A stretch of DNA of 64,000 nt. Origin: Thermoplasmata archaeon (GTDB lineage: Archaea > Thermoplasmatota > Thermoplasmata > Methanomassiliicoccales > Methanomethylophilaceae). The notes beneath the pieces were generated by a model that saw nothing but the letters and a program-made list of their open reading frames with translations, did no database searches and had not been told where the DNA came from. Positions 44,326 to 64,000 of this stretch are shown one piece after another (positions within the stretch are counted from its first letter, which is position 1; each line of letters begins with the position of its first letter). The stretch is taken from assembly GCA_015063235.1 (NCBI GenBank), contig SUSW01000021.1, forward strand, positions 1-64,000. Direction: 5' to 3'. The position numbers were made by a program, and so were the translations under genes.

Positions 44326-45825
44326 ATGGTAAGCAAGCACTACCCCGGAAGGCAGAAAACATCCGGAATCAAGATAGAGCTTTTTAGCGAAGACGACATC
44401 CGCGAGATCGATTACGCCACCAGAGATGTTCTGGCAAACTATGGAGTTCAGGTTTCCGATGAGGAAGGACTTCAGGTATTCAAGGACGCAGGATGTGAGG
44501 TCAACTTCGAGACCAAGATGGTCAAGATCCCCTCAAAGCTCATCAACATGGCTCTTGCAGCAGCCCCTAAGATGTTCTACCTTTACGGACGTGACGACGA
44601 GCACACCGTCCCCATGATCCACTCAGGACCCGTCTACTACACCAACTTCGGTACCGGAATCCAGATGTGCGACTACCTCGGAGACAACAAGTACAAGACA
44701 AGGGACTCCAACGAAGAGGACCTCGCCAACACAGCAAAGATCGTAGATGCTCTCCCCAACCTCGCAGTCTACTCCCTCGCAGTTTCCGCAAGGAACTGGG
44801 CTGGAGTCGGAGCTGAGGATGTCCACGAGATGATCACATCGATCAAGAACACATCCAAGCACTTCCACCACATCGACCCCGTTGCAGAGAACGTCGAGTT
44901 CTACTGGGAGATGCTCAAGGCATACTACGGCGGAGATGAAGAGATGGCACGCAACAGGCCCATCATGTCCATGCTTGTCTGCCCCACATCACCTCTCGAG
45001 CTGTCACACAACGCCGCTCAGGTCATCATGAAGGGAGCAAGGCTCGGAATCCCTGTCAAAGTCCTTTCAATGGCAATGGCTGGAGGATCCTCACCTATCC
45101 ACCTCACCGGAACACTCGTTACCCACAACGCTGAGATCCTCTCCGGTCTCGTACTGGCTCAGCTTGCCAACCCCGGAGCACGTGTTCTCTACGGAAGTTC
45201 AACAACAACATTCGACCTCAGGAACGGAACCGCACCTGTCGGATCACCTGAGCTCGCAGTCATCTCTGCAGCCGTCGCCAAGCTCGGACAGTACTACGGA
45301 CTGCCCGTCTTCACAGCCGGTATGTAGACCGACGCTAAGATCCCCGACTCCCAGGCAGCACACGAGAAGTCGATCACATCACTTCTCCCCGCAATGTCCG
45401 GTGTCAACCTCATCTACGGATCAGGTATGCTCGAGTTGGGACAGACCTTCTCCATGGAGCAGGTTTGCATCGATAACGATATCATCGAAATGAACTACAA
45501 AGCAATGGAAGGAGCCCCCGTCACAGACGAGACCCTGGCCGTTGACGCAATCAAGGAGATCGGAGTCGGAAACGATTTCCTTGCACACGAGACCACAATG
45601 GAGCACTTCGAGTCCGCATCCAACCCTAAACTGTTCGACAGGACAATGCTCGGAGAGTGGATGAACAACGGATCCAAGAGCTGTGTTGAGAGGGCTCACG
45701 ACATGGTCGTAGACATCATGGCCAACCACGTCGTCAAACCTATTCCCGAAGACCGCCTCGCAGCAATGGAGGAGGTCGTTAAACAGGCTGACGCCGCTTT
45801 CAGAAAGAGAAAAGGAATGGAGTGA
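44326..45825 (+). CDS. mttB: Trimethylamine:corrinoid methyltransferase with pyrrolysine at codon 334
   Basis: 499 residues if the in-frame TAG at 45325-45327 is read as pyrrolysine. Start at ATG 44326 (GGAGG 10 bases upstream); this makes the amber codon number 334, the known pyrrolysine position of MttB in Methanosarcina barkeri, which supports both start and identity. Flanking sequence LPVFTAGM[18 protein letters not shown] is family typical. The TIM-barrel enzyme transfers a methyl from trimethylamine to Co(I) of MttC, giving dimethylamine. An ATG three codons upstream lies too close to the ribosome site. Highly biased codons (GGA, ATC, AAG) indicate strong expression. Directly followed by mttC. 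Confidence 0.96.
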
Positions 45826-59586: not shown

Positions 59587-60369
59587 ATGGCAGACAATCA
59601 CTCGGAGCTTCTGGAGGCGTACAAGGATATCGCCTCGGTGCTGAACAGGCACGGAATTACTTTCTACGGTTTCTTCGGGACTGCCATAGGTGCGGTCAGG
59701 CACAAAGGATTCATCCCTTGGGACGATGACCTGGACATAGCGATATTAGCAAAGGATCTGGATGAGGTCAACCGCGTCCTATCGGAGGAGCTGGATCCTG
59801 CGAAATACTATTATCACAACCCCAGTGCCGACAGCCATCCGCACGTCATCATAAAGACCGATGATTTCGAGACCGTTCTGAGGAACAGGAAGGCCACGTT
59901 CATAGACGTCTTCGTCCTCACCGATTTCCCGGATTCGAAGATACGTCAGTACCTTATGTACCCGTTCTGCGGCTTCGAGCTCCTGTCGCACAAAATGATC
60001 GATGAGCACCCGGGTGTGAAGGGCCTCTTCTACGGCATAATGCACATCTCCAGGAAGTTCATCCGCATGATCTCCCAGAAGGATACCAAGAAGGTTAGCC
60101 ACCGTGCGGTCAAGGTCTGGGATAACACATGGTACCGCGAGGATTTCGGGACTCCGCTGATTGTGGATTTCGAGGACACCAAGATGCCGATCCCCTGCAA
60201 CTACGACCGTATCCTGACCGAGTTCTACGGAGATTATATGACACCTCCTCCGGAGGACAAAAGGTCTGGAGCCACAGGCTATCCGTACAGTCTGATGAGC
60301 GATTACCTCGAGGACATGTCAGGCGGGAAGAAGCATCCCAGGCTATCATCGGATGATCTGCCCTATTGA
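59587..60369 (+). CDS. LicD-family phosphotransferase
   Basis: 260 residues. The LicD nucleotidyltransferase-fold motif is intact: GITFYGFFGTAIGAVRHKGFIPWDDDLDIAILAKDLDEVNRVL (residues 23-64), with the catalytic Asp residues in WDDDLDI. The family transfers phosphocholine or similar groups to surface glycans. Start at 59587 has GGAG upstream; an ATG at 59518 overlapping gene D's stop would add 23 residues. Convergent with, and overlapping by 24 bases, the LRR protein gene. Confidence 0.85.
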   Translation: MADNHSELLEAYKDIASVLNRHGITFYGFFGTAIGAVRHKGFIPWDDDLDIAILAKDLDEVNRVLSEELDPAKYYYHNPSADSHPHVIIKTDDFETVLRNRKATFIDVFVLTDFPDSKIRQYLMYPFCGFELLSHKMIDEHPGVKGLFYGIMHISRKFIRMISQKDTKKVSHRAVKVWDNTWYREDFGTPLIVDFEDTKMPIPCNYDRILTEFYGDYMTPPPEDKRSGATGYPYSLMSDYLEDMSGGKKHPRLSSDDLPY

Positions 60370-62829
60370 TCGGTTTTCCCTGAACAGATCCCTGCCTTTC
60401 TTTGTGACAGTATCCGGGACGGAAGGTTCCAATGACCTGCAGCCGCGGAAGGCCTCGTCGCCTATCTCTTTCACACTGGGCGGCAGCATCATTTCCTTAA
60501 GTGATGTGCACCCGGCGAACGCACCTTTTCCGATGGATTCCAATCCCTGAGGGATATCGATACGGCTAAGGGATGAGCATCTGCTGAAGGTTCCGCCCTC
60601 TATCCTCTTCAGTGATTCGGGCAGGACGACGACAGCAAGGGAGGAGCAGTTCACCAATGCCCCTCCGCCCAGATGGACCAAAGAATCAGGGAAGCTCAAA
60701 GATGTGATGCTCCTGCATCCATCGAAAGCACTGTCACCGACAGTCTCTGTCCCCTCAGGTATCCTGATGTGTTCAAGGGAGATGCATCCGCGGAATGCAC
60801 CTTTTCCTATTATCCTGATCTCATCAGGCAATACTATGGTCCTCAAGGATTTGCAATCTGAAAACATGCAGTCCTCGATCGCTGTGATGCCTTCGGGGAT
60901 ATCGATTCTATGCAGAGAGCAGCAACCACGGAATGCGCTGTCCAGCATCTGAACCGTTCCGGAAGGGATGATCAATGATTCAAGGCCGGTGCAGGATTCG
61001 AATGCACAGCGGCCTATCTTCGTAACCGATTCGGGAATAGACACCGTCTTGAGGGAGACACATCCGAGGAACGTCTCATCTTCGATAACCTCCACCCCTT
61101 CAGGGATGGTTATCGATTCCAGCAAGGAACAGTTTCTGAAGGCACGCCTCCTGATGTGTCTGAGGCATTTTGGCAGGATGACCGATGTCAATGATGAGCA
61201 CCCGTCGAAGACGCCTGTTTCCAATTCCCGTATCTTAGGCGGTATCTTCATCGAGCTCAATTCCGAACAGCCTCCGAATGCCTGTCTGCCGATCCTTTCG
61301 ATGTTATCGTGCAAGGTTATCGATCTGAAGCAGCAACCCTCGAAAGCACCGTCCGCAACCGACGTGATCTCCTCAGGTATTTTGAATGACTTTTCGGGCC
61401 TCATGGCGGGGCAGCGGATAAGTGCAGCGGACTCCTTGCTGTACAGTGCACCGTTAACAGACTCAAGGCAGGGATTGCCTCCGCCGACCGATATCGTTTC
61501 AAGGCAAGTGCAGCCTTTGAACGAGTCAGGGGATACGGACCTGACGGAATCCGGGATTGAAACCTATACGAGGGATGAGCAATCTCTGAACAATGATCTC
61601 TCGATGACCTCCAGTTTTACCGGGATGTTGACCGTTTTCATTCTTTCGCATCCGTCGAATGCCCCTGCTCCTACCGATTCAACAGAATCCGGGATCACCA
61701 GCGATTCGAGTGCGCAGCCGGAGAATGATTTGACCCCTATCTTTATCAGACCGTCTTTCAGTTTGACTGTCCTGAGGCTTTTCGCTCCGGCCAGGGCAAA
61801 GTCGCCGATCTCTGAAACCTGGGGCAGTTCTATCTCGGTCAGGGATGAGCAGTTGCTGAGCAATCCGTTGCTGACAGTACCAATCCTCGGAGGGATGTGG
61901 ATGTAGGACATCCTGCGGTCATCTTTAAAGGCCCAGGTACCCACTGATATCACGCTATCGGGGATGTCGATCCTTCTCAGGCGGATGCATCTCTCGAATG
62001 CCCAGTCTCCGATGGATTCCAGACCATCGCAGAGCTTCACGGATTCCAGACCCTCGCATCTGCTGAATGCCAGTCTGCCGATTGTCTTCACGGAAGAAGG
62101 GATCGATACAAATCTGAGCGCCTTACATCCGAAGAAAGCAGAATCTCCGATGTTCCCGATGCCTTGGGGGATCCCGACGTACGTAAGCGATGTGCACTGT
62201 CTGAAGACGGAGTCTCTCAGATCTCTGAGGTTTTTGGGGATGTTAACGGATCCAAGGCGGTTACAGCTTCTGAAGGCATATTCTCCAATAATCGTCACGT
62301 TCTCGGGGATCCTCATCGATGTCAGTGAACTGCAGTGTTCGAAAGCATGCTCTCCGATGTTCTCCAGCTTCTGCGGTAATATGACCTGATTGAGGTGGGT
62401 GCAGCGGCTGAAAGCGCCATTACCTACGGTCCGGACGATTTCAGGAATCTTATATCCTTTAGTTTGCTTGGAAGGAGGGTATCTGAGAAGTTTTGTCATA
62501 CTCTTGTTGAAGAGTATGTCCTGGAACGAACGGAATCTTTTGTTCTTTGATGATACGTTCAAGCGTAACAGGCGGGGGCATCCGGTGAGAGAATTCTCCC
62601 CTATCTTCGATACCGTTGATGGAATTTTTACGGTCTTAAGGAATTCACATCCGTAGAATGCATATCTGCCGATGGATGTTATCCCTTCCTCAATGACTAC
62701 CTTTTTCACCTTCTTGGAGATCCAGGGCGCCTCGGATCCGTACACATCATTGAACCTGAAGTCCTTCATGGGACCGGAACCGCAGATAGTGAGGACACCT
62801 TCCCTGTCGATGCTCCATCTCAAATTCAT
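60346..62829 (-). CDS. Large BspA-type leucine-rich-repeat protein with in-frame TAG
   Basis: 827 codons in one frame from ATG 62829, interrupted only by TAG at codon 422 (61564-61566). Up to it run LRR_5 repeats of about 23 residues (FYGCEFLKTVKIPSTVSKIGENSLTGC...). After it: VSIPDSVRSVSPDSFKGCTCLETISVGGG, a YSKESAALIRCPA segment, and further repeats to position 60346. The TAG occupies exactly one repeat residue (CSSLV-x-VSIPDSV, where relatives have Lys/Ser or similar), so translation past it leaves the solenoid in register. If terminated, residues 1-421 would form a shorter protein. No membrane anchor or signal peptide is evident. BspA-like proteins of gut microbes are surface or secreted adhesins. 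Confidence 0.8.
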
Positions 62830-62879
62830 TAGAAATACCACTTCACGGCGAAATACCGAATCACAGTTAATATAAGGTT

Positions 62880-63290
62880 GCGGCGGAGTCGAACCGCCCA
62901 CCTAGTTGCCTAGATGCCCACCGGGGTTGTGTCGGCTGAGTGGCATTGCTGCTGCTCGGACCGACTGATAGCCGTGTTGAGCTATACGCTCTTATCACGC
63001 CCTATCGGCGAACCCATCGCCGTTAAGCTTCGGGCCGCGTGCACACGTGTACCCTTGCGGGCTTTCACGCTGTGCCTGTCTACGTGTACGACGGATGTCG
63101 CTGTCACGCCAGACTGCTCCGGGATGTTGCCATCGCGGAGCGTGTTAACAGGAGGGGGCTTATGCCCCAACGGCCATATGGCCGATACCCATATGGGCTG
63201 TTAACACTCCCCCATTGCCTTCCTTGCGGAGACGGGGACCTATTCCGCTGGAGCGGAATATCAGAAACTACGTGAGTTCAGATATGTTAG
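62880..63290 (-). ncRNA. Large structured RNA with five GCAA tetraloops and T-arm-like 3' hairpin
   Basis: No coding character; in minus-strand order the helices are: GCGGAAT-type hairpin (63259-63242); TCC-GCAA-GGA in a CCCC/GGGG stem (63237-63209); a 10-bp stem GTGTTAACAG/CTGTTAACAC (63207-63198 and 63151-63142) enclosing three hairpins, CCCATATGGG, GGCCATATGGCC and GGGGC-ATAA-GCCCC; GCTCCG...GATG-GCAA-CATC (63141-63116); CGAC-ATCC-GTCG; GCGTG...CCC-GCAA-GGG (63070-63037); GGCGA-TGGGT-TCGCC; GAGC-GTATA-GCTC; GTCGG...GCA-GCAA-TGC (62965-62931); CATCTAG-GCAA-CTAGGTG (62916-62899); and GGCGG-TTCGACT-CCGCC (62898-62882), which mimics a tRNA T-arm. A minus-strand TATA box (TTTTATACTGC, about 63322-63312) fits a start near 63290. 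It matches neither RNase P (no GAGGAAAGUCC/ACAGAAA) nor SRP RNA that I can recognise. Confidence 0.75.
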
Positions 63291-63366
63291 GCGACGTTTA
63301 CACCAAAATGGCAGTATAAAACATTATGTAATGGATTATCGGTGGATGTATCTTCCTAATTAACAC

Positions 63367-64000
63367 TCACAGCTGCTCTCTCAGTAAATCACAGAGCGGG
63401 TTGGCCACATGCCATATCATTACCGGAGGCACCGCATTGCCGAGAGCATGGTATTGGTATTTTCCTCCTCCTGTCAGTGTGAAAGAATCAGGGAAGCCCT
63501 GTATCCTTGCCACCTCCCTCTGGGTAAAGCGTCTTAGTCCGCCTTCCGTTTCAAGGACCGGATCGGAGCTGTTGAGAGAGGTTTTCCACAGGTGCGAACC
63601 GATGGTTCTGCAAGGCTTCGACGGATCTTGGATATGATATTTCCTTTCGCTCTTCTTCTTCCTCAACTGTCTGTCTACGCTATCTCTGCTGTAATGGTAT
63701 CTTTCAGGGACGTCCTGCTCCAGCACAGATGACAGCGGCTCAGGATGGTTGGAGCGCCTGATAGTTCCGAAGGAGAATTCCGCAGGAACGTCTTTACGAA
63801 TCCCGACCATGATGACCCTTTGGCGTTTCTGCGGAATACCGAATTGTGAAGCATCCATTATCGAAGAGACCACCTCATACCCGCAGTTCCTGAATTCCGA
63901 GATTATCAACGGAAATGCCTCGCCGTCGTTGGCGGTCAGCAGCCCCGGCACATTCTCCGCTATGAAGCATAAGGGCTGTTTATCCCTGATGATACGGCAC
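63367..64000 (-). CDS. C5-cytosine DNA methyltransferase (partial, N-terminus outside window)
   Basis: The last 211 codons are visible. Motif VI ENVPGLLTANDGE, motif VIII QKRQRVIMVGI, target-recognition region, motif IX TQREVARIQGFPDSFTLTG, motif X ALGNAVPPVM. It continues past the right window edge, where motifs I and IV must lie. The reading frame is intact in the visible part. Distinct in sequence from the methyltransferase at 15689, so the organism carries at least two C5 enzymes. A partner endonuclease would be expected beyond the edge, or the gene is solitary. Confidence 0.9.
   Translation of the reverse strand, partial: CRIIRDKQPLCFIAENVPGLLTANDGEAFPLIISEFRNCGYEVVSSIMDASQFGIPQKRQRVIMVGIRKDVPAEFSFGTIRRSNHPEPLSSVLEQDVPERYHYSRDSVDRQLRKKKSERKYHIQDPSKPCRTIGSHLWKTSLNSSDPVLETEGGLRRFTQREVARIQGFPDSFTLTGGGKYQYHALGNAVPPVMIWHVANPLCDLLREQL

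Follow-up and report, generated by a model that had tools for sequence, protein, structure and literature searches.

A large structured RNA predicted in a Methanomethylophilaceae-type archaeon and its fast-evolving relatives

Introduction

Large ornate RNAs such as GOLLD, ROOL and OLE occur in bacteria and phages, and their functions are poorly understood (PMC12286853). GOLLD and ROOL are phage or prophage RNAs encoded near tRNA islands, with tRNAs sometimes lying in the GOLLD linker, and both form RNA-only cages (PMC12286853). Among the open-access papers searched, none was found that describes such an RNA in the archaeal order considered here.

The locus lies in a stretch of 64 000 nucleotides (positions 1–64 000 of contig SUSW01000021.1, GenBank assembly GCA_015063235.1; hereafter the window) from a Methanomethylophilaceae-type archaeon. 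In an initial annotation, made from the letters alone, positions 62880–63290 had been described as a large undescribed structured RNA. The coordinates were correct and the strand, which had not been given, is the minus strand; the description itself is supported by the lack of a match in Rfam and by homologues that carry compensatory base changes at both ends. As judged from its sequence, the window RNA is a member of a previously undescribed, fast-evolving RNA family in ruminant-gut methane-producing archaea.

Folding of the window RNA and searches of Rfam

The window copy (W, on G000:C16) was assigned to 62880–63295 on the minus strand (∼415 nt) from its folding energy and from the boundaries of its C-type relatives; all parts of the RNA and its promoter described below are on this strand. 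A minus-strand segment of 431 nt folded with −190.4 kcal mol−1, compared with −150.3 ± 6.0 kcal mol−1 for dinucleotide shuffles (z = −6.65), and none of 100 shuffles reached the energy of the native sequence; the plus strand of the region gave z = −4.65. When the conserved 5′ junction was imposed, at a cost of 0.6 kcal mol−1 above the minimum free energy (MFE), the fold contained 15 hairpins. Five of the 15 are closed by a GCAA loop, with stem lengths of 3–7 bp, and five is also the number of GCAA caps noted earlier; among 2000 dinucleotide shuffles the mean count was 0.11 and the maximum three, so that five were reached in none of them. The 10-bp stem GUGUUAACAG/CUGUUAACAC with three hairpins inside was also recovered by folding (63207–63142), two of its hairpins being palindromic (CCCAUAUGGG and GGCCAUAUGGCC); this element was not recognised in the other copies. 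A coding region was considered and rejected: open stretches are present on both strands of the RNA but differ between copies.

A search of Rfam, a check that the initial annotation had proposed, was run against release 15 with E values up to 10 and gave no useful match. The best score was 11.5 bits for a group II intron (cut-off 49), followed by 9.7 bits for RNase MRP on the opposite strand, far below the cut-off. The RNaseP_arch model did not match here, and the RNase P RNA of this genome was located elsewhere (G000:C47, 203.6 bits). The GOLLD, ROOL and OLE models gave no match in the window region (E up to 10) or in the relatives. The initial annotation had suggested that GNRA-rich RNAs as large and ornate as this one tend to be ribozymes or RNP scaffolds. 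Large ribozymes have a similar size, GNRA loops and multi-helix junctions, and the RNA could be considered one of them; a ribozyme is nevertheless highly improbable given that the models for RNase P, group I and group II introns do not match and that between the two ends there is a hypervariable middle with no recognisable conserved core.

Relatives of the window RNA

Nine copies were found in all: at least six loci in the genome of the window, W included, and one in each of three relatives. Those in the window's genome are, besides W, copy E (G000:C21) and the C-type copies on G000:C24, C11 (twice, C11a and C11b) and C3, and those in relatives are A (G087:C69), B (G027:C192) and D (G114:C2). 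The copies are few and come mostly from metagenome-assembled draft genomes; C24 and C11a are each situated at the end of a contig. BLAST of the genomes of the order returned short islands only, and copies A, B, C, D and E were reached by following such islands by eye in combination with folding. Three further BLAST loci (L006, L007 and L008) had only coding sequence or individual hairpins in common with the RNA and were set aside.

A first covariance model (R1), for which copies A and B were the sole input, proved too narrow and did not find W. A second model (R2) was built from the 5′ domain of W, A, B and C; it recovered two held-out copies of the same genome, C3 at 38.9 bits and C11a at 36.1 bits, and scored 21.1 bits on W itself with filters off. 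Copies D and E were missed by R2 and were recognised by eye and folding. A search of 400 genomes of the class with R2 yielded no convincing member outside the family under the stricter filters of Infernal, which W-like copies would escape, and this absence is weak evidence because of the low score of W and the failure to find D and E. Weak model matches in G075, G006, G082 and G223 fell in coding or unrelated sequence without other features and were attributed to chance. Plain DNA similarity to phages or plasmids was not found, and viral contigs held no convincing relative of the window RNA; two of them (L232 and L233) contain isolated GGCGGTTCGACTCCGCC hairpins that match a D-loop/T-arm pattern, with no detectable tRNA, and are probably unrelated. 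The new RNA family is hardly detectable by sequence similarity alone, and short motifs together with a purpose-built covariance model were needed.

Promoter and ends of the RNA

The promoter regions of the nine copies were compared after alignment on the 5′ GCC. The window copy has a TATA box, TTTTATAC, at 63314–63321, and the corresponding site holds a TATA-like element at equal spacing to the GCC in all eight other copies, which strengthens the earlier proposal of a plausible TATA promoter. Further upstream, about 58 nt before the GCC, the element TACATCCACCGA (63339–63350) matches TTTGTACATTYACYGAA, found at identical spacing ∼60 nt ahead of the 5′ end in C24, C11a, C3 and E; the core TACATYYACYGA has a single exact match in the 64-kb window, within TACATCCACCGA. 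The 5′ end of the window RNA was predicted from the position of the TATA box, and the RNA would begin ∼25 nt downstream of it; the 3′ end was placed at or just past the T arm. The conserved block of the C-type copies starts with UUGCC and terminates in a U-rich end ∼320–355 nt on, with unrelated flanks, and in copy E a run of U7 directly after the T arm marks the end. Taken together, the fixed promoter spacing, the sharp ends and the U7 of copy E point to a discrete transcription unit and not a leader or a repeat. On the sequence comparison as a whole, the window RNA is very probably an independent structured RNA gene.

The presence in one genome of several dispersed, near-identical C-type copies, two of them at contig ends, is what would be expected of a selfish MITE-like repeat that folds well by chance. 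C3 and C11b have a mean column identity of 90% over their alignment. The promoter of C11b, however, has kept the functional elements alone while the remainder has diverged, compensatory base changes are present, and the divergent copies have their architecture in common rather than terminal sequences, and we regard a repeat of this kind as very unlikely.

Conserved 5′ junction and 3′ domain

The RNA opens with a three-way junction (63239–63292) made up of the closing helix P1 (CCUA/UAGG) and hairpins a and b, which was identified from MFE folds and covariation. An identical junction appears in the single-sequence MFE folds of W, B, C and E; in copy A it lies 1.6 kcal mol−1 above the MFE, and copy D shows hairpin b and the closing helix distinctly but hairpin a is weaker and indistinct. 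Helix P1 has the form CCUA/UAGG in W, A, B and C; D and E have CCAAG/CUUGG. Of the 21 junction pairs aligned across W, A, B and C, 13 have changes on both sides, and 96.3% of the cells are paired.

At the other end lies a domain resembling the elbow of a tRNA (62882–62926), comprising a D-like hairpin with the loop CCGGUG, a GCAA-capped hairpin in the position of an anticodon arm and the T arm GGCGGUUCGACUCCGCC, stacked. The resemblance of the 3′ hairpin to a tRNA T arm had been noticed in the initial annotation and is borne out: its stem GGCGG/CCGCC and canonical UUCGACU loop (62898–62882) are invariant across W, A, D and E, the copies that have the domain in common, and the D-like loop is CCGGUG or CCGGG among them. 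Both-sided changes were counted in nine of the 15 pairs, with 100% of the cells paired. The GG of the D-like loop could, on this structural model, contact the T loop in the way typical of a tRNA elbow. An acceptor stem was looked for after the T arm and none was found. Copy B is cut by a contig end, so its 3′ domain is not seen, and the C-type copies do not contain the T arm or elbow domain.

The analysis of covariance on homologues that had been suggested at the outset gave compensatory base changes at both RNA ends. The structural alignments of the 5′ and 3′ parts were made by hand around the predicted structures and padded with N, so that the counts given above favour those structures; for the 5′ junction, none of 500 shuffled or slid versions came near the observed pairing and covariation.

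Variable middle

The copies range in length from 301 nt (D) to 1157 nt (E), and what separates their two ends appears from its sequence to be a fast-changing set of hairpin modules, to which the longest copy adds whole tRNA-like domains. W contains three modules of the form CGUG–internal loop–hairpin–CACG, recognised by sequence and folding: module 1 (63078–63114), in which the closing strand reads UACACG, the GCAA-capped module 2 (63041–63075) and module 3 (62967–63006; GGGCGUGAUAA...AACACGGC). Copy E (L034 9752–10908, ∼1.16 kb) includes a 128-nt tandem duplication, many hairpins with loops of the GUCANN type and three tRNA-Cys-like modules scoring 51 to 53.5 bits. The inner arms of these three are nearly identical and their acceptor strands differ yet pair, each module having one mismatch near the terminal acceptor pair; two further tRNA-like units were read from the sequence by eye. 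Copy D has one tRNA-like module (31.2 bits). The ordinary tRNA-Cys of the window's genome is on contig C12.

Such modules could point to a tRNA decoy or sponge, in which T arms and tRNA-like domains would titrate enzymes that act on tRNA (cleaving toxins, modification enzymes or processing nucleases) within a defence or counter-defence island. The number of T arms varies from one to at least five among the copies that have them, copy E carries its three near-identical tRNA-Cys-like modules while the genomic tRNA-Cys is elsewhere, and copy A is set in an accessory island with an integrase and PIN-domain genes. Against this, the C-type copies have no T arm, the window RNA has a single one, and the part that recurs most widely in the family, the 5′ junction, is not tRNA-like; a decoy is accordingly considered unlikely.

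Neighbouring genes

The initial annotation had placed the RNA next to a DNA methyltransferase gene. A C5 DNA methyltransferase gene is indeed located immediately upstream on the minus strand (63367–64000 in the window, continuing past its end to position 64365 of the contig). Close relatives of the enzyme (63–65% identity) were found in only three of the 147 genomes of the order, G000, G027 and G087, and these are exactly the genomes with an RNA of the W, A or B type, within a few kb of the enzyme and in differing gene order. The nearest named relatives of the enzyme are from Candidatus Methanomethylophilaceae archaea of goat rumen and roe deer omasum, and the methyltransferase is common in gut bacteria. 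The association holds in three genomes but not across the family, other copies adjoining unrelated genes. Its co-occurrence with the enzyme in the same three genomes would suit an RNA partner of the methyltransferase, acting as guide, inhibitor or regulator. The C, D and E copies, however, are away from the enzyme, and no such RNA was found near 78 non-archaeal relatives of the methyltransferase within the flanks scanned (up to 5 kb on each side); a partnership is therefore thought most improbable, and we take the link to be one of shared cargo and not of a functional pair.

The gene directly downstream (60346–62830), also on the minus strand, is of the BspA-type leucine-rich repeat (LRR) kind (Pfam LRR_5). 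It contains one in-frame TAG (61564–61566), after which the repeats carry on in the same frame as far as 60346. Readthrough of this codon is possible, given the pyrrolysine mttB element of this archaeon. The element was detected in the mttB region of the window as PYLIS_3 (74.3 bits, 45325–45424). Copy A in G087 likewise precedes a BspA-type gene, with a tRNA-Lys and an integrase gene alongside and PIN-domain genes near by. From this arrangement in the window and in G087, a structured 5′ leader controlling the LRR gene in cis might be supposed. Other copies nevertheless precede unrelated genes, copy E ends in its U7 run, the RNA unit is sharp-ended between unrelated flanks, and the window LRR gene has a possible separate TATA box of its own past the RNA (TTATATTAA, 62867–62875, minus strand); control in cis is therefore improbable.

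As to other surroundings, copy C3 adjoins a tRNA-Thr gene, and there is no tRNA gene at the window copy. Copies D, E and C3 (L033, L034 and L231) each have a transporter-like gene resembling MatE a few kb away at most; the Pfam analysis covered the neighbour of D. The window region contains no recognisable provirus, and the neighbours are chromosomal and accessory genes.

Separately, a second RNA-like region of ∼190 nt was observed to be conserved in the genus (L238, L239, L241, L242, L243, L244 and L246, in G077, G078, G081, G082, G085, G087 and G000:C17). It has the TTTGTACATTYACTGAA element, the one also found upstream of C24, C11a, C3 and E, and a TTTAAATA-like box; the downstream sequence is purH-like in most. 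No significant match to it was found in Rfam. A pseudoknot pairing CCUAC with GUAGG and GGGUUA with UAACCC is possible.

Proposed function

The best overall explanation, to which we give about an even chance, is a trans-acting non-coding RNA with its own promoter and a conserved 5′ junction that serves as a scaffold like GOLLD or ROOL. A scaffold mechanism in the manner of these bacterial RNAs, proposed by analogy, is itself given somewhat less than even odds. In such a scheme the 3′ elbow would dock a putative tRNA-elbow-binding protein of the host and shield the end of the RNA, and the middle would, again by analogy, form an architectural scaffold from a single RNA or from several copies together. 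The RNA gene would travel with accessory islands that hold the methyltransferase, the BspA-type surface protein and an integrase near a tRNA gene.

More tentatively, the family may represent a new archaeal modular RNA particle with a fixed 5′ junction and 3′ elbow, between which hairpins and tRNA-like domains have been duplicated and diversified with their stems still pairing. Such particles, either by themselves or joined by a tRNA-binding protein, would form a large complex encoded on accessory islands.

Comparison with known RNAs

The 3′ domain recalls tmRNA in that a T arm directly follows a hairpin in the position of an anticodon arm. The new RNA differs in having no acceptor stem after the T arm and no detected tag ORF, and ARAGORN finds no tmRNA. 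The modules of copy E resemble tRNA-Cys, with D, anticodon (GCA) and T arms kept and scores of 51–53.5 bits, but have A instead of U after the acceptor stem in addition to the mismatch, and are embedded in an RNA of ∼1.16 kb. YrlA, a bacterial Y RNA, contains a tRNA-like module; its model scored no more than 23.6 bits (cut-off 69), and solely over one tRNA-like module of copy E.

The closest likeness is to the ornate RNAs of bacteria and phages. GOLLD is also a large multi-helix non-coding RNA with one conserved and one variable part, and lies near tRNA and mobile genes (PMC12286853); ROOL is ornate, large, found in rumen microbes and often located near tRNAs (PMC12286853). Of the copies described here, A and C3 have a tRNA gene beside them, E has internal tRNA-like modules and W has no tRNA gene. 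The phage or prophage location that is typical of both is not that of the window RNA. In contrast to GOLLD, the new RNA is archaeal and not of phage, and its recognisable parts are a 5′ three-way junction and a 3′ tRNA-elbow-like domain; it differs from ROOL in being archaeal, in its length of 301–1157 nt, in its hypervariable middle and in the lack of an Rfam match. The new RNA is placed here among the large ornate non-coding RNAs, outside the GOLLD and ROOL families by Rfam. With its family, the function of ornate RNAs can be approached in a further domain of life through a system that is small and open to comparison.
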